NCBI RefSeq assembly: GCF_019320115.1
Contig: NC_089584.1
Coordinates: 108,207,799-108,271,798 of the forward strand
Length of the DNA: 64,000 nucleotides
Direction: 5' to 3'
DNA from: Miscanthus floridulus
Lineage: Eukaryota; Streptophyta; Magnoliopsida; Poales; Poaceae
Program-made: the position numbers and the translations under genes
Shown: in pieces, positions 9,501 to 63,090 of the stretch
Layout: each line of letters opens with the position of its first letter
How positions within the stretch are numbered: position 1 is the stretch's first letter
Notes under the pieces: model-generated
The model's input: only the letters and a program-made list of their open reading frames with translations
The model's database searches: none
Told to the model about the DNA's origin: nothing

Positions 9501-9757
9501 TATTCAGGCTAGGCGTGCTGTGCACCACAGATATGCCGTCGTCGCGGCCAATCATGAAGGACGTGCTGCAAATCTTGCTCAATTGCAGCGAGCAGACGCG
9601 CCAGAAGAGCAAAATGGAGAATGGCCAGGAGTACGAAGCGGCTCCTCTCCTGCTGCCGCAGCGACGCAGTCGCCGGAAACAGCCGTCGAATGGAACAGGA
9701 ATTGACATGGAAGAAAATAGTGACTTCGACAGAGCATTGCACATGTCAGTACAGTAA
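6514..9757 (+). CDS. LRR receptor-like serine/threonine kinase, subfamily XI, HSL3-like
   Basis: Two exons, 6514-9181 and 9285-9757, joined across a 103-bp intron give 1046 residues, normal for LRR-XI kinases. In order: a hydrophobic signal peptide (about 1-28), an N-terminal LRR cap ending in a Cys pair (about 33-75), some twenty plant LRRs of the LxxLxLxxNxLxGxIP type, a second Cys-containing cap, one transmembrane helix (about 645-668) and a kinase domain. The kinase has the glycine loop GRGGSG (709-714), VAVK lysine 735, HRD (841-843) and DFG (861-863), and keeps the APE segment across the splice. It is therefore an RD kinase predicted to be active at the plasma membrane. Kinase motifs and overall layout resemble Arabidopsis HSL3 (At5g25930), a peptide receptor; ligand and orthology are inferred. 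The ATG begins the signal peptide. Without splicing, reading stops at 9321. The gene converges on the hexokinase gene. Confidence 0.93.
9182..9284 (+). other. Intron of the LRR receptor kinase gene
   Basis: The donor is G|GTATGG after the codon for Pro of the APE motif; the acceptor is CTGCAG|AG. Splicing restores GAG (Glu of APE) and the downstream AYTNKVNEKVDVYSFG block expected in this kinase family, so the boundaries are well supported. Confidence 0.9.
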
Positions 9758-22420: not shown

Positions 22421-24800
22421 ATCTCACAAGGATGGACCTCCTCCTATCTTTGAGGGAGATGACTTTCCATATTAGAAAATCCGCATAGAGACCTACTTAG
22501 AAGCTCTAGACATTAGTATACTTAGAGCCACCTCACAAGGCTTCCCAAAACCTCAGGATGCTACACACTTACAAGGCGATGAGGTTAATTATGAAAAGTG
22601 GAATGCAAAGGCTTGAAACACCATCTTTAGAGGGCTTTGTAAAGATGTGTTCCACCGCATAAGGAATCACAAAGATGCCCATGCACTATGGTCGAACGTT
22701 TGTGCGCTCCATAAGGGAACCAAGAGTGAGCATGAGGAATGCTATCATCTTGTAATTAAAAAGCTAAATTCATTTGAGATGCTTCCCAAAGAATGTGATA
22801 ATGAGATGTATTCATGTTTGAATGTTCTTGTAGAGGAAGTCAATAGGCTTGGACTTACTCAAATGTCACCATTCGACGTTGTGAGAAAGATCTTGAGTAT
22901 CCTCCCCATTAACAAATATGGGCATATTGTGACTGTGCTACACCAAGGTGATCTTTCCATCGCTACACCGACATAAATCTTAGGAAAGATTAATGCTCAT
23001 GAGATGTACATGCACATCATGCCACAAGATGGCTCATCCTCTACCAAGAAAGAGAAGGACTTAGCATTCAAAGCTAGCCAAGAGAAGGCCAAAGCAAGGC
23101 TTGAATATAAGAGCTCAAGTGATGATGAAGTTGATGATGAAAGCCTTGCTCTCATGGTGAAGAAAATCGCCAAGATGCTAAAGAAGCTAAACAAGAGTGG
23201 CATCAAGTTCGATGTCAAGAAGAAGTTCTTCATAAGCTCTAGGAGAAAGTCAATCTCCGAAACGGATTGCTTCAATTGTGGTGAACTTGGTCATCTAGCA
23301 CACCAATGTACCAAGCCCAAAAAAGACAAGTTCAGGAACAAGTTCAAGGGCAAGAAAGATGACTCAACCAATGAAGAAGAAGATGAAAAGAAGAAGAATA
23401 AGCCATACAAGAAGAGAGATGGCAAGAAGAGAGACTTCCACAAGAAGAAGAAGAATGGAAAGGCCTACATTATCGGTCATTGACTCACGGACATTGATTC
23501 ATCTAGTGGATCATCTGATAATGATAGTGACAATGAGAAGGTGGCCGCCATTGCTATTGATCTTTCATCTTCACCGCCATCATCCTCTACACATCTATGC
23601 CTTATGGCCAAGGGTGAACACAAGGTAACTAATAATGATGATAGTAGTGATGATGAGCAAGCTAGTAATGATGATAGCGATGATGATGATGATTCACCTT
23701 CATATGATGATCTTGTCAAAATTCTAAGACAATATACTAAGATCATTAGAAAGAGTAGAGCTAAAAATGAAAAGCTAGATGCTAAAAATGATTCACTTTT
23801 AGCAAAATGTGATACATTGGAAAATGCTAATGTTGAGCTTAAAGAAACAAATGATACTATATCATTCAAACTCAAGGAGCTCAAATCTTCTAAGAAAGAG
23901 CTTAAAGATAAACATGATAAACTTGAGAGGATACACAATGAGCTCATCACTAGTCACAACAAGCTAAAAGATGAATACACTACTCTTAAGATCAATCATG
24001 ATACTCTTATTATTGCTCAAGAATTTTTACCAAATAAGCCACATGATGCTACTAACCATGTTGTTAAGATTGATATAGCTACATCATGTGATGATTTAAT
24101 TGATGAGAGCATTGAGCAAGGATCTAGTGGCAAAGGCAAGCAAGTGGTTGAGTGCAATGACTATGATGAGTATGTCAAGCTCAAGAGTGATAATGAGAAG
24201 CTCAAGAAAGATCTTGAAGAGATCAAAAGCTGCAACGCCATTGTGCTAGAAACTCTTGATCATGATGAAGAGTTGATCCTTGAGAATGAGAAGCTCAAAG
24301 AAGAAAACAAGAAGCTCAAGGAAGAGAAGAAAGATGATGCTCTAAAGGAAGAAAATAAGAAGCTCAAGTTGGAGAAAGAGCATATCAAGATTGGGTTGAG
24401 CAAGTTTACTAGAGGCAAGCACCTCCAAAGTGAGCTACTCATGAACACCGTCATAAAGATGGATAGAAGTGGCATTGGATATATGGCAAGTGTAGAGAAG
24501 AAGAAGGCTCAAGTTCAACAACAACAATCAAAGCCAAAGCTAAAGCCAAAAAGATGTTTTGAGTATGGACAAGAAGACCACTTTGCTCATGAGTGCTAAA
24601 CTCCACCGCCACAACCCTTGCCCAAACATGCTAGACCCTTTGCCTTCAATGCTCACTACATGCTTAGAAAGGATTCTAGTGGAAAGATGAAAGTCATGTT
24701 CTTAGGACCCTCTAACAAGAATAGGCCTAAGAAGATTTGGGTGGCTAAGTCACTTGTTGAGAAGGTGAAGGGCCCTCAATAAGTTTGGGTTCCTAAAGCT
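22421..24800 (+). pseudogene. gag pseudogene of element A
   Basis: Copia gag with a DUF4219/UBN2-like N-terminal part, a zinc knuckle of the form CX2CX4HX4C (about 23271-23312) inside a Lys-rich region, a very long Asp/Lys/Glu-rich coiled-coil segment (about 23540-24420), and a second, degenerate knuckle near 24556-24597 in which the second Cys is replaced (CFEYG). In-frame stops are seen near 22473, 22615, 22976 and 23483, and again at 24597. The product would be the capsid-nucleocapsid precursor; here it is non-functional. Confidence 0.8.
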
Positions 24801-27800
24801 TGAATCTCTTGTGTGTAGGTGAACTACAAGATCGGTGGAAGTCATTGGGTTATTGATAGTGGTTGCACTCAATATATGACCGGTGATCCTCGTATGTTCA
24901 CCTCACTAGATGAAGAGGTAGATGGACAAGAGAGAATAATATTTAGAGATAACTCAAAGGGCAAGGTTAAAGGATTGGGTAAAGTGGCAATATCAAATGA
25001 TCATTCCATCTCCAATGTGCTTTCTGTTGCTTCATTGAGCTTCAACTTGCTATCCGTTGGACAATTGTGTGATCTTGGCTTCCAATGCTTATTCACCAAG
25101 AATGAGGTTGTTGTATCCAAGGTAGATGATAATCAAGTGATATTCAATGGATTTAGATACAACAATTTATATCTAGTGGACTTCACCTCCGAAGATGCAA
25201 ATTTAAAGACTTGCCTATTTACCAAAACAACACTTGGATGGCTATGGCATAGAAGACTTGCTCATGTTGGGATAAGCTCACTCAAGAAGCTAATGAAGAA
25301 TGAGTTGGTGAGAGGGTTAAAGGATGTGAAGTTTGCGAAGGACAAGCTTTGTAGTGCATGTCAAGCCGGCAAGCAAGTTGCAAATACTCATCCAACCAAA
25401 GCTTTTATGCCAACCACAAGAGTGCTAGAACTCCTTCACATGAATTTATTTGGACCAATAACATACAATAGTTTAGGAGGAAATCTTTATTGTCTTGTGA
25501 TTGTTGATGATTATTCAAGGTATATATGGGTATTCTTTCTTTATGACAAATCCGAAGTTGCATCTTGCTTCAAGAAGTTTGTCAAGAGAGCACAAAATGA
25601 ATTTGAAGTGAAGCTCAAGAAAATAAGAAGTGACAATGGGAAAGAATTTGACAACACAAACATAGAAGCTTATTGTGATGAAGTTGGAATCAAACATGAA
25701 GTCTCTGCAACTTATACTCCTCAATAAAATGGTGTAGTTGAGAGGAAGAACCGGACTTTGATCACTCTTGCAAGGATAATGCTAGATGAGTACAACACCC
25801 CCGAAGCTCTATGGGCTGAAGCAATCAATACCGCATGCTATGCATCCAACCGCCTATTCCTTCAAAAATTCCTTGGCAAGACACCTTATGAGTTGCTCAA
25901 TGAAAAGAAGTCGGACGTCTCCTTCTTTAGGGTGTTTGGTTGCAAATGCTACATCTACAAGAAGTGGCAACACCTAGGGAAGTTTCAAAGACATTGTGAT
26001 ATTGGTTTTCTTGTTGGTTACTTATTAAAGTTCAAAGCATATAGAGTATTTAATCCTATCACTGGCTTGGTTGAAGAAACATATAATGTGGAATTTGATG
26101 AATCTAACGAATCCCAAGAAGCACATAAGAATCTTCATGATGTAGGTGATGAACCATTGAGGGAGGCTATGAAGAATATTCCGGTGGGAGACATCAAGCC
26201 AAAGGATGATAAAGATGATATACAAGTCATTGATCAACCTTCTTCATCAAGTGTGCCACAAGATGATAAAAAAGATGGGAGAATAGAAAATGAAGATACT
26301 CATGTCTCTCATGGGCAAATGGTGGTACAAGCACAAGATGTTGATGCTTCATAACCTTCTCCTCAAGTGGTTAACAGAAGAAATACACCTCTCCAACAAG
26401 ATCATCCACAAGATCTCATCATAGGGAGTCCATCAAAGGGTGTAATGACTCGATCTCAAAAACTTGCTTCATTTATTGCTCATCACTCTTTTGTCTCTTA
26501 CTATGAGCCTACCAAGATAGAAGAAGCTCTTAAAGATCTAGATTGGATCAATGCCATGCATGAAGAGTTGAACTTCACTCGCAATGAAGTTTGGACTCTT
26601 GAAGAGTGGCCAAAAAGTGCAAGAGTCATTAGAACAAAGTGGGTGTTCTAAAACAAGCAAGATGATCAAGGTGTTGTTGTGAGGAACAAAGTAAGACTAG
26701 TTGCAAAGGGGTTCTCTCAAGTTGAAGGTTTAGATTTTGGAGAGACCTTTGCACCAGTTGCAAGGCTAGAAGCCATTCGTATCCTTCTTGCATATGCATC
26801 GCATCATAAAATAAAATTATATCAAATGAATGTGAAAAATGTATTTTTAATTGGCTTTATTAATGAACTAGTCTATGTTGATCAACCTCCTAGGTTTGAA
26901 GACCCTAGATATCCTAATCATATTTATAGGTTGTCCAAGGCATTATATGGGCTTAAGCAAGCCCCAAGAGCTTGGTATGAGTGCCTTCGGGACTTCCTTA
27001 TTGAGAAGGGCTTTACCATTGAAAAGGTCGACACTATACCATTCATCAAGAAGCTTGATGGGCATATCTTTATTTGTCAAGTATATGTTGATGATATCAT
27101 CTTTGGATCATCAAATGAAGACTCTTGCAAAGAATTTGGTAAATTGATGTCAAAGGAGTTCGAGATATCAATGATTGGTGAGCTTACATTCTTTCTTGGT
27201 TTTCAAGTCAAGCAAATGAAAGAAGGCATCTTCATCTCTCAAGAGAAATACACAAAAGATCTTCTCAAGAGATTCAAGATGGATGAATGTAAGCCAATCA
27301 AGACATCAATGCCTACCAATGGACATCTCGACCTAGATAAGGGAGGTAACACGGTTGATCAAACTCTCTATCGTTCTATGATTGGTAGCTTGTTATATTT
27401 GACCGCATCTAGGCCTAACATCATGTTTAGTGTGTGTTCGTGTGCTAGATTTCAAGCTAATCCTAAGGAAACACATTTAATTGTCGTAAAAAGAATCCTT
27501 AGGTATCTTAAGCACACACCAAGCATTGGCCTATGGTATCCCAAAGGAACTATATTTGAATTAATTGGCTATTTCGATTTGGATTATGCTAGTTGCAAAG
27601 TTGATAGAAAAAACACATCCAGAGGGTGCCATTTGCTTGGTAGATCACTTGTGTCTTGGTCCTCCAAGAAATAAAATAGTGTGGCTTTGTCCACCGTCAA
27701 AGCGGAATATATCGCCATGGGTGCTTGTTGTGCATAAATACTATACATAAAATAAACTTTGCTAGACTATGGTATAGTTCTAGAAAAGATACCTCTTTTG

Positions 27801-34854: not shown

Positions 34855-34954
34855 NNNNNNNNNNNNNNNNNNNNNNNNNNNNNNNNNNNNNNNNNNNNNN
34901 NNNNNNNNNNNNNNNNNNNNNNNNNNNNNNNNNNNNNNNNNNNNNNNNNNNNNN
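34855..34954. other. Assembly gap (100 N)
   Basis: Exactly 100 N, the conventional placeholder for a gap of unknown size. The left edge is inside element B's env-like ORF; the right edge is about 3.55 kb into the 5' LTR of element D. The hidden sequence must therefore be far longer than 100 bp. Confidence 0.97.
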
Positions 34955-35282
34955 TTTTGTTGGAGATGATCATCCGCTGGCACTGTATTTAAACTCCGCG
35001 TGAGTGTGTGTGTGGTTTGAACAAATGACTTCCGCTACTTTTATTCGAACTGGTTTGTAATAATTATGTTTAAACTCTGATGTATCTGAGACCGTGAACT
35101 TTTATGTAATATGTGATGGTGACCGCTAAACTTACTACGATCATGGCTGGGACACAAGTTGGTTTGGAATCCTTCGTGATTTCACGGACTACCGGGTTAT
35201 ACGGGCTTAAGTTGGATAAATCGTCTGCTCCTAGTGGATGATTTTCTCACTTAATTTCGTATAATTGGTTGGTTCTGTCACA
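34955..35282 (+). repeat. 5' LTR of element D, last 328 bp
   Basis: Matches the last 327 bases of the 3' LTR (45501-45827) almost exactly and ends ...CTGTCACA. The first roughly 3.55 kb of this LTR lie in the gap. Confidence 0.93.
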
Positions 35283-35284
35283 GC

Positions 35285-35296
35285 TGGTATCAGAGC
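35285..35296 (+). promoter_or_regulatory. Primer-binding site of element D
   Basis: TGGTATCAGAGC, complementary to the 3' end of initiator tRNA-Met, two bases after the LTR end. This is the standard minus-strand primer site of plant LTR retrotransposons. The copy in element C (near 46370-46381, minus strand) has mutated. Confidence 0.92.
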
Positions 35297-36068
35297 GTGG
35301 TTTAGCGTGTTACTCTTCACAAGTGTATTTAAAACAAAAAGGCATTTGGAAAACATGATTTAAAACTATAAAGTGTGCCAGTGATCATATCCCTTATGCC
35401 CAGTTAAGGACTTTAGGTGGCTTAATTAAGTACTGACTGGGGTTCTTGCATCATATTTCTCTTTCGTCGCTCATACGGCGTGCTATTGTATGAGTGCCAC
35501 TTGTTTGAGTGGTAATGAATGGATCATTTGCCTCTACGCCTCGGTAAGTGTGAGTTGTGAGAGCATGATCGGATACACTGCCGATCTAGGGTGAATGCTT
35601 ATATGATGCTGGAGTAATTACATGTTCTACGCATGTTTTACAAAGGTGTCCCATGTAAGGGTCTTCCATCGGTGGAGGCGATGCCGTCAATAGGACGATG
35701 GTTCGGGTAGTTACTACCGTTGTACACGTATCTGGGGATTCGTGTAGAGCGTGTAGATAAAACTTTACTGCTTTTATGTATTCATTGAGAATTGGGCTGA
35801 AATGGATCTTCTGCAGGTACATAACAACGCTATCGTGTAGAACGTATTAACTACGTATTTGAGAGATCGTTGTTATGCCACCGAATTCGTCGTTAGAAAT
35901 TATTATTTCCTAAGTTTGTGAGAACGTACGAACCGTACATACATCATGTTACTTGGGCATCTCATTCATCTCGTGCATACCTCCCCTTATAAATTGATTA
36001 TCTCATTTGATAAAAGTGTATCACCTAAAATATGTTTCCCCGAAGTAATAAGAGAACTTTTGCTACAG
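35297..36068 (+). other. Leader of element D with donor-like and acceptor-like splice signals
   Basis: A 772-bp untranslated leader. It contains CTCG|GTAAGTGTGAG at about 35541-35551, a strong 5' splice-site match that is conserved in element C (reverse complement near 46113-46124). It ends TTTTGCTACAG immediately before the ATG at 36069, a good 3' splice-site match. A TTCTGCAG|GTACAT block lies at about 35811-35822. Confidence 0.5.
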
Positions 36069-37057
36069 ATGGCCCGCACGAAGCAGACCACCCATAAGTC
36101 CACCGGAGGAAGAGCACCTCGACGTCCGTTGGCCCTAAGGAGCACCGCACCACGGACACCTTCTTGAGCGAGTTTGGCATGCCAACTTTGCTTTGGAGAG
36201 TGCTCCATGATGTGGGGTACCCAGAGGGTCAAGAGCCGGTGTACTCTTGGAATGAAAGCCAGTTAGCAGATGATGGACTTGCAGTGGTGGAGATCACGGT
36301 TCCTGCTCTCGGTGATGCTCTAGATTGGGATGGTTGGCATTTGGAGTTTGAGGGTCGCACTCCAGCTGAGGGTGCAGAGGGAGCAGCCTTCCGTGTCATC
36401 AGGGACATTATGAGCAGATTTCCTAGTGAGCTTGCTGCAGCTCTAGCTGGTACTTTTCCTAGGGATGATCCTCGCGATGCCATTTGGGTTCAGCCTCAAG
36501 GAAGTGCATTGGTCAGAGGTCCAGCTGAGGGACAGGCTAGCGACAACCAGGCAATGAGTGCTATGTTCGCCGCCATCAGAGCATATGAGGGTCTCGAGAG
36601 TACCTACTGGACTTTGACTGGCTTGCGTAGTGAGGATAAGCTCAAAGGGAAGAAGTAGAAGAAGAGACAGGCACGAGCTATAGCTAGCTTGCAGGAGCAG
36701 TTGGCTGATATGAACTTACAGCGAGACCAAGTGGTTGAGAGAGGTGATAGAGCTATGCAGCGAGTGCATACGTTGACTCAAGCCAACAACAATGCAGACC
36801 GCATGATTGGACAGTTGGTTCAAGAAAGGAATGAAGCCTGGAACGCAAGAAACCTTCTGCTGCAGAGGGTCGATGAGCTAGAGGAATACAACGGCTACTT
36901 GCACGAGGAGTTTCACGTGCTCTACAATGGGGTTGGCCCATATGCTCCACCGAACGTCGCTGGTATGGACGTTGACAACGACAACGAGGACGAGCCTGCA
37001 GTTTCACCTGGGGGCGATGGTGACGTCTCCGATCCCGACGATGGCCCCGAGGAGTAG
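36069..37057 (+). pseudogene. Extra ORF of element D: histone H3-tail-like N-terminus, coiled coil, acidic C-terminus
   Basis: The ATG at 36069 opens with MARTKQT, then KSTGG, APR and LA in the same spacing as the histone H3 N-terminal tail: 17 of the first 22 residues are identical. The positions of H3 K4, K9 and S10 are kept; K14, K18 and K23 are Arg. This frame ends at the TGA 36165-36167. A different frame continues without a gap from 36164 as a roughly 165-residue globular region. After one in-frame TAG (36656-36658) follows a heptad-like coiled coil (about 36690-36940) and an Asp/Glu-rich tail to 37057. The simplest reading is one ORF of about 330 codons broken by one frameshift and one stop. 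It lies between primer-binding site and gag, where standard chromoviruses have none. I do not recognise the globular part. Function is unknown; histone mimicry is an inference. Confidence 0.75.
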
Positions 37058-37423: not shown

Positions 37424-38500
37424 ATGACAAACACTCGTCGAACCACGTATGAGGCCGCTGAGCCCGGTGCCAACGGTGCGGGGGACCGGTGGTGGTGGTG
37501 GTGGTGGAAACCACAGCAACAACAATGAACCTCCCCATGAACCGCATTTGCCACCTCCTCCCCCGTTTACCCCCGAAATGTTCCTCGCACAGCTGCTCGG
37601 GAGTCAGCGCAACACGGAACAATCTCAGAAGAACATGGAGGATCTTCTTAGAACCATCGCCAACAACGTTCAACGTGGTAACAATCAAGGTGGTGGCATG
37701 GGAGTGAACCAATATAGCAGCTTCAAAGATTTCATGGACACCAGGCCACCAGTATTCAAGGAAGCAACAGAGCCACTCGATGCTGAGGAATGGATCAACA
37801 CGATGGAAGATAAATTCCGTGTGTTGAGAATGACTAAGGTGCTGAAAACGGAATATGCTGCACTTCAATTGCAAGGACCGGCGGGAATGTGGTGGAAGCA
37901 CCATCACACCACCTTCCCTCCAAATGCTCAAATTTCTTGGAGAGAGTTTGCTGAGGCCTTCCGTGGAGTCTATATTCCACCCGGACTGACCGAGATGAAG
38001 TTGGGAGAGTTTCTGGCATTGAACCAGGGCACCAAAACCGTGACGCAATATCTGCATGCCTTCAACAACTTGTGTCGCTATGCTCCCGACATGGTTGACA
38101 CAGATGCTAAAAGGATAGCCAGTTTTAAGAGGGGTCTTAATCCAAAAATGATGAAGCATGTTGGTATCAACAACCGCGTCAGATTCAATGACTTCATCAG
38201 CGACTGTCTAAAGCAGGAGAAGAATAACAACGCCAGCACCGCAGCCAAGACACGCAAGAGAGCCTTTGAAGGTGGGCCGTCTCAAGCTAGGGCACCTATG
38301 GGAGGTCGTCCTCCTTATCGCCCATCGGCACCTGGCGCTAGATTCAGGCCACCTCAGCCAAGAAGTCAGAATTTCCGTGGACCTCAAAAGCCGTACAAGA
38401 TGGCAGTACAGCCCAACAAAGCGGCCGCAACTACGGTACAAGGCAGTTCCAAGGAGCTGTGGGATCTGTCGGGACAGTAAGAGGACCCTGCTATAACTGT
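37424..38500 (+). pseudogene. gag of element D (frameshifted)
   Basis: Gypsy gag. The ATG at 37424 follows TGAAATATGCAG directly. The first codons (MTNTRRTTYEAAEPG) are in one frame; reading shifts in the GGT microsatellite near 37480-37500 and the capsid-like retrotransposon gag domain (about 37700-38210, with WRE and KRGL motifs) is open in the next frame until 38480. The zinc knuckle CX2CX4HX4C ([14 protein letters not shown], about 38489-38530) is back in the original frame. Two compensating frame changes thus flank the capsid part. The product would form the virus-like particle; this copy needs both shifts to be bypassed. Confidence 0.82.
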
Positions 38501-41500
38501 GATCAACCCGGTCATTTCTCGAGGTTTTGTCCGTACCCGCCTAAGAAGAAGCAGCAGACTTATAATGCTAGAGTGCATAGTACAACAGTGGATGAAATTC
38601 CAGAGGGAGAGCCCGTCACTGCTGGTAAGTTTCCTGTCAACGAAAACCCTGCAGTTGTTCTATTTGATTCTGGATCATCACATTCTTTTATGAGTCAAGC
38701 ATTTGCACAGAAACATGGACAACTATGCACAGAATTGGGTTATGGGTACCGTATAAGTTCAGCAGGGGCTGATGTTTTGACCAACCAGATGATTCGAGGG
38801 GCAACCCTTGAATTAGGTAGCAGGAAGTTCCGAGTGAACTTGATAGTTATGCCTGGGTTAGTCTTGGATGTCATTATAGGGATGAATTGGATGAAGGATT
38901 GGGGAGCAGTCATAGATACTGGAGGTCGAGTACTTACCCTTAAGGATCCCCTAGGTGAGGGTACTTTCCAAGTACCATTGCCTCGAAGGACAAACCTTAT
39001 AAGTGTTACATGTGCTACGGCAGTCACACCTATTCATCAGATTCCGATAGTGTGTGAATTCCCGGACGTATTTCTGGATGAGCTACCTGGTCTTCCGCCA
39101 GATAGGGAGATTGAGTTTGGAATCGAGCTAGTCCCTGGAACAGCTCCGATTTCAAGGAGACCTTATCGGATGCCTCCAGATGAGTTAGCTGAGCTAAAGA
39201 AGCAATTAGAAGATTTGTCGAAAAAGGGGTTTATTCAGCCAAGCAAGTCTGAATGGGGATGTCCCGCTTTGTTTGTGAAGAAAAAGAATGAGGGCACGTT
39301 GAGAATGTGCGTAGACTATAGGCCACTCAATGCTGTGACCATCAAGAATAAATATCCCTTGCCACACATTGATGTTCTGTTTGACCAATTATCCAAGGCC
39401 AAGGTATTCTCAAAAATAGATTTGAGATCCAGTTATCATCAGATTAAGATTAGGCCATAGGATATACCGAAAACTGCATTTTCCACCAGATACGGGTTGT
39501 ATGAGTATCTTGTCATGTCTTTTGGCTTGACGATTGCTCCTGCATACTTTATGTTCTTGATGAATACAGTTTTCATGCCAGAATTGGATAAGTTTGTGGT
39601 AGTATTCATCGATGACATTTTGGTATACTCCGAGAACGAAAAAGATCATGAAGAGCATCTGAGAACTGTCTTGACCAGACTTAGAGATCATCAATTGTAT
39701 GCTAAGTTTAGCAAATGCGAATTCTGGTTGAAGGAAGTTCCTTTCCTTGGTCACATTCTATCAGAGAATGGAGTTTCAGTCGATCCAAGTAAGGTGCAAG
39801 AAGTTATGAATTGGAAAGCACCGACCACAGTTCCTGAGGTTAGAAGTTTCTTAGGATTAGCAGGTTATTACCGTCGCTTTATACCAGATTTCTCGAAGAT
39901 CGCCAAACCAATGACAAGCCTCCTTCAGAAGGACCATAAATTTGTGTGGACAGAAGAGTGTGAAGCAGCTTTCCACACTTTGCGGAAACTGTTGACCACT
40001 GCTCCGGTTCTAGCACAACCAGATATTGAGAAACCATTTGATGTGTTTTGCGACGCATCAAAAACTGGATTGGGTTGTGTCCTTATGCAAGAAAGGAGAG
40101 TCATTGCTTATGCATCACGACAGTTGAGAAAGCACGAGGTCAACTATCCAACACATGATCTTGAACTTGCTGTAGTTGTGCACGCCCTCAAAATTTGGAG
40201 ACATTATCTACTTGGTAATGTGTGCAATATTTTCACGGATCATAAGAGTCTTAAGTATATCTTTACCCAACCAGAGCTAAACATGAGACAACGTAGATGG
40301 TTGGAATTGATCAAGGATTACAACTTGAATGTGCAATATCATCCTGGTAAAGCCAATGTAGTGGCAGATGCTTTGAGCAGAAAGTCACATTACTTGAATG
40401 TGCAGCCATTACTTGAAGATGGATTCGATCTAATGCATCCTGCTGTGTTGCATAGTATTCAGATTAGTTGCTCTTTGGAGAGTAAGATAATAGAAGGTCA
40501 GAAAACTGACAAGGGGATATTCCACATCAAAGAGAAAATAAAAGAAAAGCCGTCTCAACACTTTAAAGTGGATGAACAGGGCGTGTTGTGGTTTGACAAC
40601 CGTCTTGTGGTTCCCAAGGATCGAGAGCTTAGGAATAAACTCATGGATGAAGCTCACCTTTCTAAGCTATCTATCCATCCTGGAAGTAGTAAGATGTATC
40701 ATGAACTAAGGTCTCGCTATTGGTGGACCAAAATGAAGAAAGAAGTTACAGCATATGTTGCCAGATGTGACACATGTTGTCGAGTGAAAGCCATTCACAT
40801 GAAACCTGCTGGTATGTTGCAACCCTTATCAGTCCCTAGTTGGAAGTGGGACGATATTAGTATGGATTTTATCACGGGTTTGCCCACTACTCAAAAAGGA
40901 CATGATTCGATTTGGGTAATTGTGGATCGTCTTACCAAGACCGCTCATTTCTTGCCGATCAAAACAGATTATCGACCACCTCAATATGCCAAGAAGTATA
41001 TCGCAGAAATTGTGAGGTTGCATGGTATACCAATGACCATAGTATCTGATAGAGGCTCACAGTTCACGGCTCATTTTTGGGAACATTTACACAAAGGCTT
41101 AGGAACTAGTTTGATTCGCAGTACCGCTTATCATCCTCAGACAGATGGTCAGACTAAATGAGTAAATGCTGTTTTGGAGGATATGTTGAGAGCCTGTGTA
41201 TTGTCTTCCAAGGGATCATGGGAGTCATGGTTACCGTTAGCTGAGTTTTCTTATAATAATAGTTATCAAGAAAGCATCAAGATGGCCCCATTCGAAGCTT
41301 TATATGGCAGAAAATGTAGAACACCATTGAATTGGATCGAGCCTGGTGATAGAAGGTATTATGGCATTGACTTTGTAGAAGAAGCCGAGAAGAAAGTTCA
41401 TATTATTCAGCAGAATATGAAAGCTGCCCAATCACGTCAGAAAAGCTATGCAGACAAAAGAAGGAGACCCCTTGTGTTTGAAGTTGGTGACTATGTTTAT

Positions 41501-41953
41501 CTGAAAGTCACGCCAATGAAGAAGAAAAGGTTTGGAATTCGAAGAAAGCTTGCCGCGAGATTCGTAGGACCATACAAGATCTTGGAACGAAGAGGTCCAG
41601 TAGCCTACAAGTTAGAGTTACCTGAGACAATGAGTACCGTTTTCCCAGTTTTCCATGTATCACATCTCAAGAAATGTTTGCGTGTTCCGGAAGAAAGAAT
41701 AGAACCTCAAGGTGTCGAACTCAAATCAGATTTGGTGTATCGTGAACAACCAGTACGGGTGTTAGACACTAAGGAACGTGCTACTCGGAATAGTGTGGTA
41801 AAAATATACAAGATACAGTGGGATCATCATGATGAGGGAGATGCAACTTGGGAAACAGGAGAGTATCTACAAAAAGCTTATGAAGAATTTTATAACAAAT
41901 GGTTCGTAACCCAAATCTCGGGACGAGATTTTTATAAGGGGGGAGGGCTGTAA
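38501..41953 (+). pseudogene. pol of element D (PR-RT-RNase H-INT-chromodomain), two premature stops
   Basis: One frame, continuous with the zinc knuckle of gag, runs to the TAA at 41951-41953. Visible parts: protease with FDSGSSHSF (about 38660), RT with FIDD (39605-39616), RNase H with FCDAS and TDHKSL, integrase with the H/H/C/C finger (CDTCC near 40768) and DDE-type core (MDF, SDRGSQF), then a chromodomain at about 41756-41905 containing KIQW and ATWE. Stops interrupt at 39458-39460 (TAG, in RT) and 41159-41161 (TGA, in integrase); otherwise the frame is open and catalytic residues are kept. The final stop is formed by the first bases of the 3' LTR. The chromodomain is expected to guide integration toward histone-marked heterochromatin. 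Confidence 0.88.
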
Positions 41954-44900
41954 CACCCCGGTGTTATGCCTGCATTTAGGCATTGCTAATCATACATATT
42001 GTGCATCATCAAGCATCCTATTCATATATGCGCAATCTTGCATATAACAACTGAAACATTACTTCGAAACATACGAAACATGTTTGTGAAAAGTAAATGA
42101 TGCATACACTTATTAGAGTTGTTTTGCTCTGATTCTTGCTTGCTAGTTGAGTAGAAACTGTTGGTTATGCTTGTAAATCATCTAGAATTGTTTAGCAAAA
42201 TTTTTGGAGCAAGGTTTGTATTCAAATTAATTCAAAACTTTGCTTCCAAAGTAAATTCCCAAAATTAGGGTTTTTGAGTTAAAATTTAACTTTGATTCTA
42301 TAATTTAAAAATCTAGATAGAATTGGACTTTAGTCACAAAAGCAAAGTTGTAGGGAATTAAATTCTAAGCAACTTTCATTTTTGGTACATTTTCAAAAGA
42401 GGTCATTTTCTTGCTCAAAATAATGATTGAAAGATGGCATTTAAAAAAATTTCTTGAAAATATATTGAAAAATTCCATTTCTATTTGTCTGGGCCGCCGC
42501 CTCGCTTCTGGCCCGCCAGCCGAAGCCGGCCCAGCGAGCCCACGCACGCCGCGCGCCTCGCCTCGGCCCAGCCCAGCGCCGTGCCAGCCCGGCCTGCCCC
42601 CGCGCGCCGCGCCTTCTTCTCCCGCGCGCCGTGCCCGTCGCCACGCCACGTCCTGACCGCTTCAGGCGACGCCCGCCGCGTGTCCGCCATGCGCCCGGCT
42701 AGCTCTGACCACGCAGCGCGCTGGCGGGCTTGAAGAGGAGCGCGCCCTGCTGCCAGCCGCACGCGCTCTGCCTTCACTCCTCCCGCGCTGCCTTTCCTTC
42801 CGCCAGAACCGCGCCCGAGCTCCGCCGGCGTCAAACTCCCGCACCACCGCGCCATTCTCCAATTACTCGCGCCCGCAACTCCGCCTCGCCTTCCTTCAAG
42901 TCGTGCTCGAGCTTGCTCCGCCTTCCGAGCACAGGTTGGGCCTCCCTGCGTCTCGCCGCCGACGGCCATGGCGCCGCCGTGCTCGGCCGCCATGGAATCC
43001 GTCTTCCTTCTCCCCTCCAGCCTCGCCTAGCTACCCTACCGAGCTCGCCTTCTCCTCGCACGTCTCCTGCGCTCGCTCGCTTGCGCTGCCGAGGCCGGAG
43101 ATGGCCGCCGGCCGCTGGCCGAGCTGCGCCGCCGCGCCAGCGCGCGCCCCGGCGAGGCACCTTGCCTCGGCTGGCCAGGCCGAGCCAGGCCGAGGGCTGA
43201 CGCCCTGTTGGGCCGTCCCCCTCCCTCGCGCTCGGGCCACGCAGGCCGGCTGTGGCCGTGGGCCAGTTCATTTCCGCAGGCCGGCCCAGTAGCATTTAAA
43301 TGATTTGTTTTCAATTTATTCATTATTATTTGAAAACAGAAATGGTTTGCAAAATATTTGGATACTCAAAGTTGCTCCAAATTTGTTGAAACAAATTTTG
43401 CTAGGTTCCTTATCATCAGATCTACTAGGGAAAATTATTGCATGCCATTTTTGAAATACTTTTCTGTGGAACTTTATTTAATCATGAATATTGCTAATAA
43501 CTTAAAAAATTTGTAGAAAAATCTATAGGATTCAGAAAAATATGATTCTAAGTTTGTTAATCTTCTAGTGTCATGTACTTCTTAGGAAAAATATGTTTCA
43601 TGCATGTGTTGTGGAAAATTTTGAGGTGTAGTTCAAGTACCTTTAATGGCTGAATTCTGTTATTTTTGTTAGAGAGCAAACTTTGTATAAAACATGCATG
43701 TGATAATTTTTGTACAGTCATTATATGCTATTAAGAACCTAGGAAAAATACTAATTCTATTGTTTGACACTTTTCATAGTACAAAGTAATTTCATGCTCA
43801 TTTTTATGCTATAGCTTGTCATTTTTGTGTAGGATAGTTTACTTATCCAAATTTCATGAAATTTTTATGGTAGTCTGTTTAGGGTAGTAGTATGCTACTG
43901 TAATTTTCTCAGATTTTTAGTAACATCAAAAATATATGTTGCTATTCAAACCTATTATTAATTAGAGTTTAAGCAAGTGTTGCTTTAAGTGTGATTAGGA
44001 AATTAGTAAAGCTTTGGTGTATCTTTGAAGCATTTCATAAGGTATGTTAACTTAACATATTAGTAGTAGAAGAGAATGCAGTAGATGACATGTGCTTGTA
44101 GTATAGTTCTTGGATGATGTTGACTACCTTGCATTTCAACATATCCATTACATTCATCTCCTTCGATGCACCGTTTGCATAATCACTTACGCGCATTGCA
44201 TCATACAGGATCGCAAACCGAGAACCCAGTCATCATACCCGAGGAGCCCGAGGAGCAGCTCGAGGTGCAGCAGCAGGAAGTGCCAGAAGTCGACGAGGAG
44301 GACGTTGAGGAACTTCCAGAGTGCCCCGATCACCGTCCGAGCTCCTTCGAGAGAGGCAAGCCCCGGAGCATTTTCTCCCGGTTTGCAATTATTTAATTAA
44401 ATACTTTACTTTAAATTGATGCATTACGTTCAAGAGTTGTTTGCAACCGTTGCTGCATTATACCTTGCTTACCTTTGTTATACTATATCCTTGTTACCCT
44501 AGTATTCGCAGTCGAGTCAATGCTTAGCTGGCTTAGACCGGTAGAAGTCAGGTGATTTCCTGTCACCTGCGAGCTATAGGTGGTTACCTGGATCTGCTTG
44601 GATGACTATGAAGTCATGGTATAACTAAGTGTTAAATGAAGTTGAGACCGGACGGAGACTTGCAAAGTTTTGGACTGTAGTGTTTCCGTCTGTGTCGATT
44701 AAGGACTGACCGTTGTTGGGCCTCGAGTCATGTTGAACGCATGACTTATATTTAGCTGGCCGGATAAAGTACCTTCCGACCGCAAAGCTGGGAGATTTTT
44801 CGGGCCGAGTAGATTGCCCGCAACGCACTGTACCGGAGCAGGTGTGGTAGGACACGGGGGCGGGATGATAAGACCAAAGTGCAGTCAGTCGGCCCCCGGG

Positions 44901-45827
44901 TACATGTGGTTCCTGGCAAACTCGAGATTCCTAGAAAGTTGACTCGGTGATCAATATCTCACTTTAGCGGGTGAGTGAGGTTTGTGTAAGGAATAAATCA
45001 CCAGCTGGTTAGGAATCGATTCGAATCGCCATCGCTCCTGGATAGTGAGCACTTGACTTGAGTTACTTCATCGTAGTAAATGTTATGGAACACTTGGACA
45101 GTTATAGTGAATATGACAGTATGGAAATTGTTTAATGATCATTGGTTATCATTATCTGCTTAATCACATGATTACTCTAGCATAGGTGCAAATCTAGTTG
45201 ACAGGTTAATAATAATTCACTTGGCAATAATGCTTTTAGAAAGGTTCTTGAAATGCTAAAACTGCTTCTTTTTGCAAATGAGTCAGCTACCCTACTATAA
45301 AGCCCTTCATAATCCTTGGTGTCATTTATTTTCGGTTATGTCGGGTAAGTCTGGCTGAGTACCTTCTCGTACTCAGGGTTTTATTCCCACTTGTTGCAGA
45401 TGGGCAGATGTATTATGGCTACTGTATCAACTGCCTTTATCCTGCGATGGGTGATGCTTAGGACCATGGGCATGGTCATTCCTTACGTCTCATCTAATGC
45501 TTTTGTTGGAGATGATCATCCGCTGGCACTGTATTTAAACTCCGCGTGAGTGTGTGTGTGGTTTGAACAAATGACTTCCGCTACTTTTATTCGAACTGGT
45601 TTGTAATAATTATGTTTAAACTCTGATGTATCTGAGACCGCGAACTTTTATGTAATATGTGATGGTGACCGCTAAACTTACTACGATCATGGCTGGGACA
45701 CGAGTTGGTTTGGAATCCTTCGTGATTTCATGGACTACCGGGTTATACGGGCTTAAGTTGGATAAATCGTCTGCTCTAGTGGATGATTTTCTCACTTAAT
45801 TTCGTATAATTGGTCGGTTATGTCACA
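41949..45827 (+). repeat. 3' LTR of element D
   Basis: A 3879-bp LTR, TGTAACACCCCGG...GTTATGTCACA. It is preceded by the polypurine tract AGGGGGGAGGGC. Inside are an AT-rich first 530 bp, a strongly GC-rich island (about 42485-43290), a long AT-rich part, a short acidic ORF (44166-44396), and a terminal part shared with the 5' LTR. It is homologous in full length to the minus-strand LTR at 46386-50296. Confidence 0.92.
44166..44396 (+). other. Short acidic ORF inside the element D LTR
   Basis: A 76-codon frame rich in Glu/Pro/Gln that ends DHRPSSFERGKPRSIF followed by a short tail. A collinear frame with the same ending is present in the LTR of element C (minus strand, 48020-47661), and an acidic run followed by GKPW is found in LTR F (minus strand, about 53490-53310). 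It may be a true small protein or only conserved regulatory sequence; no known domain is recognised. Confidence 0.45.
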
Positions 45828-48800
45828 TACACGATAACATTGTTATGTACCTGTAGAAGATTCATTTCAGCCCAATTCCCAATGAATGCATAAAAGCAGT
45901 AAATTTTATCTACATGCTCTACATGAATCCCCAGATACGTGTACAATGGTAGTAACTACCCGAACCATCGTCCTATTAACGGCATCGCCTCAACAGATGG
46001 AATACCCGCACATGAGATACCTTTGTAAAACATGTGTAGAACATGTAATTACTCCAGCATCATATAAGCATTCACCCTAGATCGGCGGTGTATCCGATCA
46101 TGCTCTCACAGCTCACACTTACCGAGGCGTAGAGGCAAATGATCCATACACTACCACTCAAACAAGTGGCACTCATACAATAGCATGCCATATGAGCAAC
46201 GAAAGAGAAATATGATGCAAGAACCCCAAGTCAGTACTTAATTAAGCCACCTAGAGTCCTTAACTGGGCATAAAAGATATGACCACTGGCACACTTTTTA
46301 GTTTGGAAATCACGTTTTTCAAATGCCTTTTTGCTTTAAATACACTTGTGAACTGTAACACGCTAAACCATGCTCTGATGCAAGCTGTAACAGAACCGAC
46401 CAATTATACGAAATTAAGTAAGAAAATCATCTGCCAGAGCAGATGATTTAGCAAACTTAAGCCCGTATAACCCGGTAGTCCGTGAAATCACAAAGGATTT
46501 CAAACCAACTCACATACCAGCCAAGATCATAATAAGTTTAGCAGTCACCATCACATATTACATAAAAGTTCGCATCTCAGATACATCAGAGTTTAAACAT
46601 AGTTATTACAAAACGAGTTGAAATAGAAGTAGCGGAAGCCATTTGTTCAAAACCACACACACTCACACGGAGTTCAAATATAGTGCCAGCTAATGATCAT
46701 CTCCAACAAAAGCATCAGACGAGACATAAGGAATGACCATGCCCATGGTCCTATGCATCACCCATCGTAGGATAAAGGCAGTTGATACAGTAGCCGTAAT
46801 ACATCTGCCCATCTGCAACAAGTGGGAATAAAACCCTGAGTACGAGAAGGTACTCAGCTAGACTTACCCGACATAACCAAAAATAAAGTGACACCAAGGA
46901 TTATGAAGGGCTTTATAGTAGGGTAGCTGACTCATTTGCAAAAAGAGGCATTTTTAGTATTTCAAGAACCTTTCCAAAAGCATTATTATCAAGTTAATTA
47001 TTATTAACCTGTCGACTATATTTGCACCTATACTAGAGCAAGCATGTGATTAAGCAAATAATGATAACCCATGATCATTAACAACTTCCATAATGTCATA
47101 TTCATTATAACTGTCCAAGTGTTCCATCAACATTACTATAATGAAGTCATTCAAGTCAAGTGCTCACTATCCAGGAGCGATGGCGATTCGAATCGATTCC
47201 TAACCAGCTGGTGATTTATTCCTTACACAAACCTCACTCACCTGCTAAAGTGAGGTATCGGTCATTGAGTCAACTATCTAGGAAAATCTCGAGTTTGCCA
47301 GGAACCACATGTACCCGGGGGCCGACCGACTGCTCTTTGGTCTTATCATCGCGCCCCCGTGTCCTACCACACCTGCTCCGGTACAGTGCGCTGCAGGCAA
47401 TCTACTCAGCCCGAATAATCTCCCAGCTTCGTGGTCGAAAGGTACTTTATTCGGCCAGCTAAATGTAAGGCATGCGTTCAACATGACTCGAGGCCCAACA
47501 ATGGTCGGTCCTTAATCGACACAGATGGAAAGCACTACAGTCCAAAACTCTATAAGTCTCCGTCCGGTCTCAACTTCATTTAATCACTTAGTTATACCAT
47601 GACTACATAGTTATCCAAGCAGATCCAGGTAACCACCTATAGCTCACAGGTGACAGGAAATCACATGACTTCTACCGGTCTAAGCCAGCTAAGCATTAAC
47701 TCGACTGCGGATACCAGGGTAACAAGGATATAGTATAACAAAGGTAGACAAGGTATAATGCAGCAACGGTTGCAAACAACTCCTGAATGTAATACATTAA
47801 TTAAAGTAAAGTACTTAATTAATAATTGCAAACCGGGGAGAAAAATGCTTCGGGGCTTGCCTCTCTTGAAGGAGCTCGGGCGGTGATCGGGGCACTCTAG
47901 AAGTTCCTCAACTTCCTCCTCATATGCTTCGGTCACTTCCTGCGGCTGCACCTCGAGCTGCTCCTCGGACTCCTCAGGTATGACGACTAGGCTCTCGGTT
48001 TGTGATCCTGTATGATGCATGTGCGTAAGTGCTTATGCAAAAAGTGCATCGGATGAAATGAACACAATGGATATGCTTGAATGCAAGGTAGTCAACATCA
48101 TCCAAGAACATGTACTACAAGCACATGTCATCTACTGCATTCTCTTCTACTACTAATATGCTAAGTCAACACATCTCATTAAATGCTTCAAAGATACACC
48201 AAAGCTTCACTAATTTCTTAATCATACATAAGGCAACATTTGATTAAACCCTAATTAATAATATGTTTGAATAGCAACATCTATTTTTATAGCTTAGAAA
48301 AATCTTAAAAAATTACCATAGCACAGTACTACCCTAAGTAGTCTACCATTAAATTTTTATGACATTTGAATAAGTGGAGTAGCCTACACAAAAATAACAA
48401 GCTATGGCATAATTATGAACATGAAAATACTTTGTATTATGAAAAGTGTCAAACAACAGATGTAATATTTTTCCTATGTTCTATACAGTAAATAATCATT
48501 GCACAAAAATTATCACATGCATGTTTTATACAAATTTTGCTCTCTAGCAAACATAACAAAAATCAGCCATTAAAGGCACTTGAACTACATCTCATAATTT
48601 TTCTACAGGACATGCATGGCATATATTTTTCCTAGGAAGTACATTACACAAGAAGAGTAACAAACTTGGAAGCATATTTTTTTGATACATATAGGTTTTA
48701 CTACACATTTTATAAGATATCAGCAATATCAAGAATTAATTAAAGCTCTACAGAAAAGTATCTCAAAAATGACATGCAATAATTCTATCAGGTAGATCTG

Positions 48801-50296
48801 GTGACAAGGAACACAACAAAATTTGTTTCAACAAATTTGGAGCCAAAATGGGTACACAAACATTTTCCAAAGTATTTCTCTTCCCAAATAATAAAAGAAA
48901 AACCGAAAACAATTTTCCTATTATTACTGGGCCGGCCCGTGGGAACAACTGGCCCACGGCCACTTTCGGCCTGCGCAAATGAGCGAAGGAAAGGCGACGG
49001 CCTGGCCTAGGGCTCCTGCCCAAGGCTGACCTGGCCCAGCTCGGCCGAGGCGAGACGCCACGCCACGCCACGCCACGTCGGCATTCCAGATGCCACGGCG
49101 GTGCGGTCGCTGCCAGTGGGCCGACGGCCATTGCCGACCATGATTGGGCAAACAGGCATGAGCGCTGGGTCTACAAGAAGACGGCAAACCTGAGCGGGTT
49201 ACCTAAGGGGATGGAGAAGGGACGGAGGAAGCCCTTCCACGGCGAGGCCAAGTGCGGCGGCGCCATGACCGACGGCGGCAAAAACACGCAAGGCCGCTAT
49301 ACCTTGCTCAAATGGTGTCCCTACAGCGAGCACCAGGTGCTAAGGAGCGAGGCAGAGCAACGTGTGCTTGATTGTGGGAAATGGTGGACCACCGGCAGCC
49401 AATTTTGCTGGCGGGGCTGCGGTGGCGATGGCGGCGCGAGCAGAGCTCGGTGCGGGGCGAGGTAGAGACACGGCGCGGGAGAGGAAATGAGGAGTGTAGG
49501 GAGAAGCGGAGCTACGGTGGCTTGAAAATGGTGAGGCGCGCTTGCTTGCGGGGGCCATGGGATGCCACCCGGCCGGCGTCGCCGGCATGCGCTCACCACG
49601 CGGCGCGGCGTGCCTGATGCGGTCGGACGTGTACGCGCGCGTAGTGGAAAAAGGAAGCCAGCGCGCGAGGTGGGCCGAGCTAAGGCGAAGGCGCGGGCGC
49701 GGGGAGGATTGCTGGGCTGGCTTCGTCTGGTGGGCCAGAAGTGAGGCGGCGGCCCGTTAAAAGGGAGAAACAATTTTTCAAATTCTATTTTTAATGAATT
49801 TTCAAATATCAGTTTTCAAGTATCATTTTGAGCAAGAAAATGACTTCTTTTGAAAATAGCCCAAAAATAAAAGTTGCTTAGAATTTAATCCTCTACAACT
49901 TTGCTTTAGGGACCAACTAAAAATTTTGCATAGATTTTGAATTGGGAAGTAAAAGCTAAATAGGGAGGATTTTTGACCATTTTCAATAAAAATTTCAAAT
50001 GCATATTTTGTCAAAAGTTTGAATACAAACTTTGCTCCAAAAATTGTGCTAAATAATTCTAGATGATTTACAATTATAGCCAAACATGTTTTACTAACCT
50101 AGCAAGCATAATTAGGGCAAAATAACTCTAAACAAGTGTATGCAACATTCATGTTTCACGAGCTTATTTCATAAGTTTCGAAGCATTGTTTCAGTTATTA
50201 TTTACATGATTAGGCATGTATGATTAGAATGCTTGATGATGCATAATATGCATAATTTACGGTGCCTAAATGCTTGCATAACACCAGGGTGTTACA
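45828..50296 (-). mobile_element. Element C: minus-strand relative of D, 5' LTR and leader only
   Basis: Read on the minus strand: a complete 5' LTR (50296-46386), a mutated primer-binding site, and about 550 bp of leader homologous to 35283-35835 of element D, ending at 45828 where the 3' LTR of D begins. D therefore inserted into C's leader; TACAC (45828-45832) is the candidate 5-bp target duplication. The rest of C, including its coding region and 3' LTR, should lie left of D, behind the N gap. Confidence 0.87.
46386..50296 (-). repeat. 5' LTR of element C
   Basis: A 3911-bp LTR with termini TGTAACACCCTGG...GTTCTGTTACA on the minus strand. It is full-length homologous to 41949-45827 but visibly more diverged than the two D LTRs are from each other, so C is older. 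It includes the same GC-rich island (about 48930-49760) and acidic ORF. Confidence 0.9.
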
Positions 50297-61276: not shown

Positions 61277-63090
61277 ATGAGGCGCATCGTGAGATGGCTC
61301 AAGCAGCTACTGACGGGCAGAAAGGAAGAGCACAGGGGACTCCAGGCGAACCATGTCGGTACCGACTGGGGCGACGGGCCGGAGAAGGAGAAGAAGAGGT
61401 GGAGCTTCGCAAAGCAGAGGAAGAGCGAAGCTGACGACGGCGCGCGGTCGTCGGGTCTGGACGCCGTCGCTCCTCCTGCCGCGGTGGAATGGTCGCAACT
61501 GGTGATGAGGCCAAGGGAGGATGCGAGAGCTCGAGAGCACCGTGCCGCGGTCGTGATCCAGAAAACATTCAGAGGCTACCTGGTATGACCGTCCCGAGCT
61601 TCCGTCTATTCTTCTCGTTCTGATCTCTTCCTAGCTTCTTATTCATTCATACGTACACGAGAAGTATTGTTTTTTTAAACTACAATTTCCCCCTTTTTTT
61701 TAAAAAAAAAAGTTATGCAGTATAGAAGTTTCTTTTTGTGCAACGATGCAGATGCCTCTTTCAGTGTATTTTTGCTATATTCTTCAGCCTTTTTGTTTGT
61801 TACTGCTTGGTGCCTTGGCTAGGTGGACTAGGCTGTTGTTGTATGTGATGTCACTTCTGCTCCTGTTCCCTTTTCTTTTTCCATGATACACAGTCGTTTG
61901 TTAGCTCTTGCGTTGTCCGTACTATACAAAATATGCACGTTGATCCGTCGTGCAATTGTTTACTGTCTTTTACTCTGCGTCGGCGAAGACTTCATCGTAC
62001 TATCAAGTTTCTGTTTGGCGTCAGAGCAGTTGATTATCACGTAGCCTGACATAAGCCTCATTACCTAATCCGGAGTTGTTTAATATAATACGGATTAAAA
62101 CAGTTTTTTCCCCCTAGAGGAAAGTCTGACATTGGGTTGGGTTTGAATCCTTGGTGTCAGGCTAGGAGAGCGCTTCGAGCTCTCCGGTCACTCGTCAAGA
62201 TCCAGGCGTTGGTACGGGGATACCTGGTGAGGAAGCAGGCAGCCATGACGCTGCACAGATTGCAGACGCTCATGCGGCTGCAAGCCGACTCCATCGCCGT
62301 CAAGAATGCTTCGTACCGGAAATCCATGGAACAAGAAGTAACCCACATGTCTTTTTTTTTTTTTAAAAAACTTTTTTTTTGAAGACTTATGTGATCCTTT
62401 GTCCTGCAGGAGAGGATCTTTGCTCGGGACGTGCAGATGAAGCCGCTGGCGACGCCGGTGCATCGCCGGATGCTGTCTGACAGCACGGACTCCAACTACG
62501 AGCGCAGCCCGCGGATCGTGGAGATGGACACTTGCCACCTCCGCTCCCGGTCCTCACGGATCACCAGCAGGTATAACCCGGATCAGTTACCGGAGTATCA
62601 CCGCCACGCGGCGCCGACGCCGTCGTGCTCGCCGCTTCCCGGCGGCAAGCAGCAGCAGCCCGCGCGGCTCTCGTTCCAGCGTAGTGCCCGCGATGAGCGC
62701 GACCCCCGGGGCTCCAAGACTGCACAGAGCACGCCCCGGTTCGCCTGCCACGACTCATCATCGCCTGCCAAGAGCGTCGAGCACAGCCTGGCCAGCACGC
62801 CACGGCGGCGCGCCACGCAGCGGGACCGGGACGAGCTCGTCAGCCCGCGGTACATGGCGGGAACCGCGTCCTCCGCGGCCAGGACGCGGTGCCACAGCGC
62901 GCCGAGGCAGCGGCAGACGACCGACGCCGAGCAGGCGCCGACGACGGCGTCGAGGAGGTCGTCGTGCTCGCATGCGCACGGCGGCGGGTTCTGCTTCCAG
63001 TGCTCGGACGTGACCCGGGCGTCAGGCTTCTCCGGGATCAGCTTCGGCGACGAGGTGGCCAGAGACTACTACCTGGACAGCTTTTGGTGA
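61277..63090 (+). CDS. IQ67-domain (IQD) calmodulin-binding protein
   Basis: Three exons, 61277-61582, 62161-62337 and 62410-63090, all joined in phase 0, encode 387 residues. IQD proteins are plant-specific, basic calmodulin-binding scaffolds at microtubules, plasma membrane or nucleus. Seen here: a short basic start ([16 protein letters not shown]), the IQ67 domain (about 88-155) with a first IQ motif [10 protein letters not shown] ending exon 1 and a second, KIQALVRG, in exon 2. The intron inside IQ67 falls at the position typical of the family. A Ser/Arg/Pro-rich C-terminal half follows, with a DUF4005-like block ([11 protein letters not shown]...SAPRQR, about 305-330) and an aromatic end YYLDSFW. 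Donors GTATGA and GTAACC and acceptors TCAG and GCAG fit. The ATG at 61277 is the first that gives the family's basic N-terminus. Assignment to a numbered IQD is not attempted. Confidence 0.93.

Follow-up and report, generated by a model that had tools for sequence, protein, structure and literature searches.

The locus studied here raises the question of why a grass retrotransposon should encode, between its 5' LTR and gag, a protein that begins almost like histone H3, and whether this beginning is an accident, a captured piece of a host gene or an imitation kept for a purpose. The window, by which we mean the whole stretch of 64,000 nucleotides analysed, contains a Tekay (Del)-type chromovirus, the clade being assigned by anatomy, with an extra ORF in sense orientation upstream of gag (hereafter ORF0). 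The ATG at 36069 opens a frame whose first 22 residues agree with H3 at 17 positions in an ungapped alignment, as a preliminary description of this DNA had stated.

The H3-like tail and the element that carries it

The match to H3 stands alone in the window, where the runner-up in the six frames has 8 identities; the best matches in eight shuffled windows have 8-9. On a composition basis, a match of 17/22 is expected about 1e-12 times per window. A phmmer search of the tail against PDB sequences retrieved histone H3 (E 1.8e-6). The features of the element are listed in Table 1.

Table 1. Features of the chromovirus and the adjoining LTR in the window
Feature	Positions	Strand	Remarks
5' LTR, visible 3' part	34955..35839	+	bounds from alignment (self-BLAST)
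H3-tail-like N-terminus of ORF0	36069..36164	+	32 codons here, then out-of-frame stop 36165-36167 (TGA)
ORF0 middle region, 163 aa	36167..36655	+	frame shifted relative to tail; TAG 36656-36658
ORF0 C-terminal region	36659..37054	+	starts lysine-rich and ends acidic; coiled coil likely, on weak evidence; stop 37055-37057
gag	37449..38480	+	Pfam Retrotrans_gag 4.7e-18
Zinc knuckle, aspartic protease, reverse transcriptase start	38459..39460	+	Pfam
Reverse transcriptase, RNase H, integrase zinc-binding and core domains	39497..41161	+	Pfam; frame broken between ORFs
Integrase C-terminal part, SH3-like domain and chromodomain	41174..41953	+	Pfam Tf2-1-like SH3 1.1e-24; Chromo 0.0026
3' LTR, cut at its own 3' end	43240..45827	+	bounds from alignment (self-BLAST)
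Sister-subfamily LTR	45828..48975	-	opposite strand to element; self-BLAST

The tail sits between the 5' LTR and gag, and the Pfam matches downstream follow the Ty3/gypsy order of gag, protease, reverse transcriptase, RNase H and integrase with a C-terminal chromodomain. The carrier had been described as an element with a chromodomain-type integrase and this is borne out, with the Chromo match itself (0.0026) falling below the Pfam curated cut-off. The pol frame of this copy is split into three ORFs. A gap of 100 Ns (34855-34954) precedes the visible part of the 5' LTR, and the comparable pieces of the two LTRs (45501-45827 and 34955-35282) are 98.5% identical (322/327), suggesting a fairly recent insertion. 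The cut 3' LTR is adjoined, in inverted order, by the sister-subfamily LTR and the internal 3' part belonging to it (49671-50296, minus strand). Elsewhere the window holds a decayed Ty1/copia-type element (23004-27674; gag_pre-integrs, rve and RVT_2), a leucine-rich-repeat receptor kinase gene (6514-9757), whose kinase part changes frame at about 9206-9321, perhaps across an intron, and an ORF matching DUF4005 (62431-63090).

ORF0 of the window copy is interrupted twice, by a frameshift after the tail and by the TAG at the end of the middle region, and the remainder lies in a different frame from the tail (36164-36658, then 36659-37057). The reading of 36069-37057 as a single ORF, made in the preliminary description, fails for this copy, whose tail frame closes at 36165-36167, but is right for the family, since relatives carry one ORF of 329 codons with an H3-like start; it is the window copy that is damaged. 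The intact protein begins with the tail, which about 170 residues separate from a lysine-rich stretch (KLKGKKQKKRQAR); then come what is likely a coiled coil, as a heptad count and weak matches suggest, and an acidic end.

Downstream of the tail, ORF0 runs on as sequence unrelated to histone. None of the three pieces into which ORF0 falls in the window matched a Pfam histone profile; the middle region matched no Pfam profile at all, and the tail matched only PAF, weakly (E 0.23). A PDB sequence search with the middle region returned one match that is not meaningful (E 1.4), and a structure model made without an alignment reached a pLDDT of 41, too poor for a structure search. Weak structural similarity to DRBM (TM 0.35-0.37) has been described for the maize and sorghum 5' aORFs (PMC11728184). 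For the middle region studied here a DRBM origin is unsupported, with no Pfam match and an hhalign probability of 1%. No relatives appeared in scans of IMG/VR with ORF0, gag and pol pieces or in one prokaryote-genome scan with ORF0.

Conservation of ORF0 within the genome

Relatives were sought in one plant genome, the 2.68-Gb assembly whose contig C5 contains the window. The ORF0 middle region gave 8008 first-look candidates, and the 150 that were scored were all 98-100% identical to it. We compared 43 distinct young copies, the window copy included, after five of 48 rows had been dropped as places fetched twice. All 43 have a recognisable tail (17-19/22 identities to H3), and 34 of them agree with H3 at every one of the first 14 residues, counting the Met. 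ORF0 is open for all 329 codons in 22 of the 43, and one copy (L014) has a stop codon within the tail. The usual form of the tail is 19/22 identical to H3. The residues T7 and H8 of the window copy, both G-to-A changes at CpG relative to copy L001, are A7 in 69 and R8 in 67 of the 76 loci compared overall, so that the family is nearer to H3 than the copy in which the tail was noticed.

The minus-strand LTR of the window is 89-92% identical to the LTR pieces of the element. Copies of this sister subfamily were found with the 3' part of that LTR (45828-46711), which gave 40 scored places among 5853 candidates, from which 30 loci were cut. A tail-bearing ORF0 is present at 29 of these, the exception being the LTR of the window itself. 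The sister copies are more decayed: identities to H3 range from 16 to 20 of 22, the first 14 residues equal H3 in 13 of 29, one copy (L075) is without the ATG and none has an open ORF0 of 329 codons. Glutamine at position 19, as in H3, occurs in eight of the 29, of which four reach 20/22. Within this genome, the prediction that relatives should carry the ORF therefore holds for young and sister copies alike, and the possibility that the tail is private to the window copy is rejected.

A search for deeper Tekay families with the window stretch 49671-50296 (40 scored of 2663 candidates) ended in a group that partly coincides with the sister subfamily. Ten places were taken at the expected distance: four hold a tail-bearing ORF0 (15-19 identities) and six hold other sequence, in one case an LTR and in the others mostly sequence unlike that of the window. 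The elements at these six places may be truncated, rearranged or devoid of ORF0. The same 40 scored places include five same-strand pairs spaced 10.54-10.64 kb apart (C5:907709/918251, C2:24246852/24257396, C14:75551109/75561662, C5:16562198/16572744 and C3:134079323/134089965), a spacing of about one LTR plus internal region, as in tandem arrays with shared LTRs.

Across the 76 loci, which lie on many contigs, the residues matching H3 are non-random, as had been anticipated. K4, S10 and G13 are present in all 76 and K9 in 75, while the uncharged residues T3, Q5, T6, S10, T11, G12 and G13 are each kept in 71-76. The departures from H3 are equally regular. Position 14 is arginine in 75 loci and lysine in one, position 18 is arginine in 68, histidine in seven and cysteine in one, position 22 is leucine in 73 and position 23 is arginine in 74. 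Two loci, L054 and L055, resemble one duplicated segment; both are included in the count of 76, and L055 was dropped from the selection count of 71 copies.

ORF0 is clearly under purifying selection, as counts of variants relative to one existing copy show. In the C-terminal region of the 71 copies, singletons have a replacement/silent site ratio of 1.04 (1.05 without CpG), as expected of dead copies, whereas variants found in five or more copies have a ratio of 0.22 (0.18 without CpG); all shared variants compared with single ones, without CpG, give a Fisher value of 2.5e-10. In the 43 young copies, the corresponding ratios are 0.44 for singletons, rather than 1, and 0.13 for variants shared by at least four copies. 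For these young copies the tail and the C-terminus fell outside the search query, while the middle region was itself the query and its low replacement counts are thereby biased. For the tail alone the counts suggest purifying selection, in a test that is small and not robust: among the young copies, variants in at least two copies comprise 2 replacement and 4 silent changes against 9 and 0 for singletons (p 0.011), but in the 71 copies without CpG sites the counts are 3 and 6 for shared against 10 and 4 for single variants (p 0.10). With CpG sites included, they become 11 and 9 against 16 and 4, six of the shared replacements being recurrent CpG variants in at least five copies.

Possible role and origin of the tail

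The element may imitate host chromatin in order to handle silencing, as a near-exact H3 tail apparently kept by selection suggests. ORF0 may well be a histone mimic favoured by selection, and would engage host readers and writers of the H3 tail, most likely blunting or diverting silencing, a reading in which our confidence is evenly balanced; recruitment of these host proteins to the integration complex would be the next possibility. An initiator methionine that precedes alanine is removed. By this rule ORF0 would be left with a free ARTK N-terminus, as in H3. The putative C-terminal coiled coil would gather several such tails into an oligomer, which could bind host H3-tail readers and writers, the candidate partners being PHD or SAWADEE-type readers, K9 methyltransferases and readers, and VIM-type ubiquitin ligases. 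The purpose would be to blunt or divert the silencing of the element. Since any protein of the element is greatly outnumbered by H3, a bulk decoy would need local concentration or multivalency.

The pattern of kept and lost residues fits a ligand open to binding or methylation but closed to further processing. Retention of residues 1-13 leaves the K4 and K9 epitopes whole, and the loss of K14, K18 and K23 removes the lysines that UHRF1 can ubiquitylate in animal H3 and that are also acetylated (PMC6316679). The PHD finger of UHRF1 binds ARTK (PMC12704277), and the plant VIM proteins, VIM6 excepted, carry a PHD as well; H3 as a target of VIM in plants is still to be tested according to the same source (PMC8594673). 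A more specific version of the proposal, which we put forward tentatively and think rather unlikely to hold in full, is that ORF0 forms a pseudo-nucleosome tail, a coiled-coil oligomer whose K4 and K9 could be read or methylated and whose positions 14, 18 and 23 could be neither ubiquitylated nor acetylated, so that it would trap silencing of the VIM/MET1 or SUVH/CMT type. If this is true, such silencing factors would be tied up in a dead-end complex, and the tail would be, among the literature searched, the first case of histone-tail mimicry by a plant transposable element.

Binding of the tail by the element's own integrase, proposed in the preliminary description, is weakened. Type II chromodomains of plants have lost the first and usually the third residue of the methyl-lysine cage (PMC3350952, PMC6317226). 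In the window element the cage tryptophan is kept and the third position is histidine, in a local alignment with HP1 that covers these two positions and not the first.

The same facts of sequence could also describe an adaptor for integration. ORF0 would then be part of the particle or pre-integration complex, and readers of K4 or K9 that bind its tail would tether the element to chosen chromatin. In sunflower, Tekay insertions are distributed differently in groups that have a 5' aORF and in groups that lack one, but this aORF resembles none of the grass ones at the amino-acid level (PMC11728184). The element already possesses an integrase chromodomain, the presence of ORF0 in particles is purely hypothetical, and a reader whose pocket is occupied by chromatin cannot also hold the mimic unless it dimerises. 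We therefore regard an adaptor role as doubtful, though worth keeping in view.

H3 tails can serve in nuclear import, and the tail of ORF0 might be a mere import signal, or a basic stretch for binding nucleic acid, that happens to come from H3. The replacement of K14, K18 and K23 mostly by the equally basic arginine agrees with such a role, as does the nuclear localisation predicted for other Tekay 5' aORF proteins (PMC11728184). However, the seven uncharged residues named above are also kept in nearly all loci, and ORF0 has another lysine-rich stretch elsewhere, the one already given. This explanation is improbable in our judgement.

Whether the tail is only a fragment of a captured H3 gene, riding along without function, bears on its origin and was considered against the H3 genes of the host. 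An H3 query matched 97 genomic places, of which many are single exons; 36 starts were fetched and 35 host H3 sequences, a few of which may be pseudogenes, were kept, one being dropped for having fewer than 20/22 identities. The tails of copies L001 and L050 differ from these 35 at 15-21 of 66 bases and at no fewer than 11.5 of about 18 synonymous sites, with dN of 0.04-0.12 in the eight genes tabulated, whereas each host H3 has another H3 at most 2.0 synonymous differences away. A recent capture is rejected on these codons. Host H3 is itself conserved, so that part of the synonymous distance, and it may be much of it, lies on the H3 side; the result counts against a recent capture and not against an old one. 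Of 16 H3 gene starts set beside the tail, 11 share its first 20 bases (ATGGCCCGCACGAAGCAGAC) exactly, with which an old capture fits, making descent from an H3 gene plausible. The claim that the tail is not simply a captured H3 gene accordingly stands in so far as no histone fold follows and no host H3 is close at synonymous sites (n=35), but a capture of the tail alone in ancient times would look the same as convergence. Six of the host H3 sequences (L093, L094, L107, L108, L109 and L110) have arginine instead of lysine at position 18 (APRRQLA), and these match H3 over residues 1-121 or 1-122 only.

A neutral fragment, which the shared first bases would suit, is very unlikely all the same. 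Synonymous sites are near saturation and yet 19-20 of 22 residues are kept, whereas simulations in which an H3 gene diverges by random substitution as far as observed retain some 12 identical residues on average, and they attain the 19 of L001 or the 20 of L050 in 0 of 5000 runs, and the 17 of the window copy in one of 5000. ORF0 is, moreover, under purifying selection in an active lineage. As for chance resemblance, which the preliminary description had thought unlikely, or an assembly artefact, the expectation per window given above and a family-wide tail make either practically negligible, and chance is rejected.

The resemblance to H3 would have a practical consequence. Antibodies to H3 positions 1-13 methylated at K4 or K9 could cross-react with ORF0, given that the first 14 residues equal H3 in most young copies.

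Comparison with known systems

An extra ORF between the 5' LTR and gag, known as ORF0 or 5' aORF, is likewise present in the grass Tekay elements Retrosat2, RIRE3, RIRE8, ZMsat2 and Sorsat2 (PMC3485330, PMC11728184). The grass ORF0 is thus already known, though unexplained, and it is the histone-like tail that is new among the literature searched. The word 'histone' occurs in neither the main text of PMC3485330 nor that of PMC11728184, nor in the available text of PMC7264820, and full-text searches of open PMC papers brought up nothing on histone mimicry or H3 tails in retrotransposons, judging by titles and abstracts; a 2011 survey of extra ORFs (10.1007/s10709-012-9654-9) lay outside this search and may hold an earlier notice. 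The element studied here has in common with the grass Tekay elements an LTR of about 3.1 kb, which in the window is complete only in the sister LTR (45828-48975), and probably a long C-terminal helix of ORF0. Kinship with the published ORF0 families is set by position and anatomy alone. No function is agreed upon for the extra ORFs that plant LTR retrotransposons carry, and here an abundant family has one with a near-exact H3 tail.

An element-encoded counter to host silencing, which for ORF0 we propose by inference only, is known from plant DNA transposons of the Vandal family, which encode anti-silencing proteins (PMC11728184). The Vandal elements belong to a different class, and the available text of that article mentions no histone mimicry for them. 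PAF15 is closer in kind, as its N-terminus is H3-like and is bound by the PHD finger of UHRF1 as H3 is (PMC7060239). As in ORF0, the H3-like sequence stands at the very N-terminus of another protein. The lysines of PAF15 are ubiquitylated by UHRF1, whereas positions 14, 18 and 23 of ORF0 are mostly arginine, and the match of ORF0 to H3 is much closer than that of PAF15.

Imitation of the H3 N-terminus by non-histone proteins is also known from influenza NS1 and from the SNAG domain bound by LSD1, in which few residues are shared with H3. In the usual form of ORF0, by comparison, 13 consecutive residues after the Met are identical to H3, and the carrier is a plant LTR retrotransposon. The tail of ORF0 suggests that retrotransposons, too, may counter or exploit silencing through histone mimicry.
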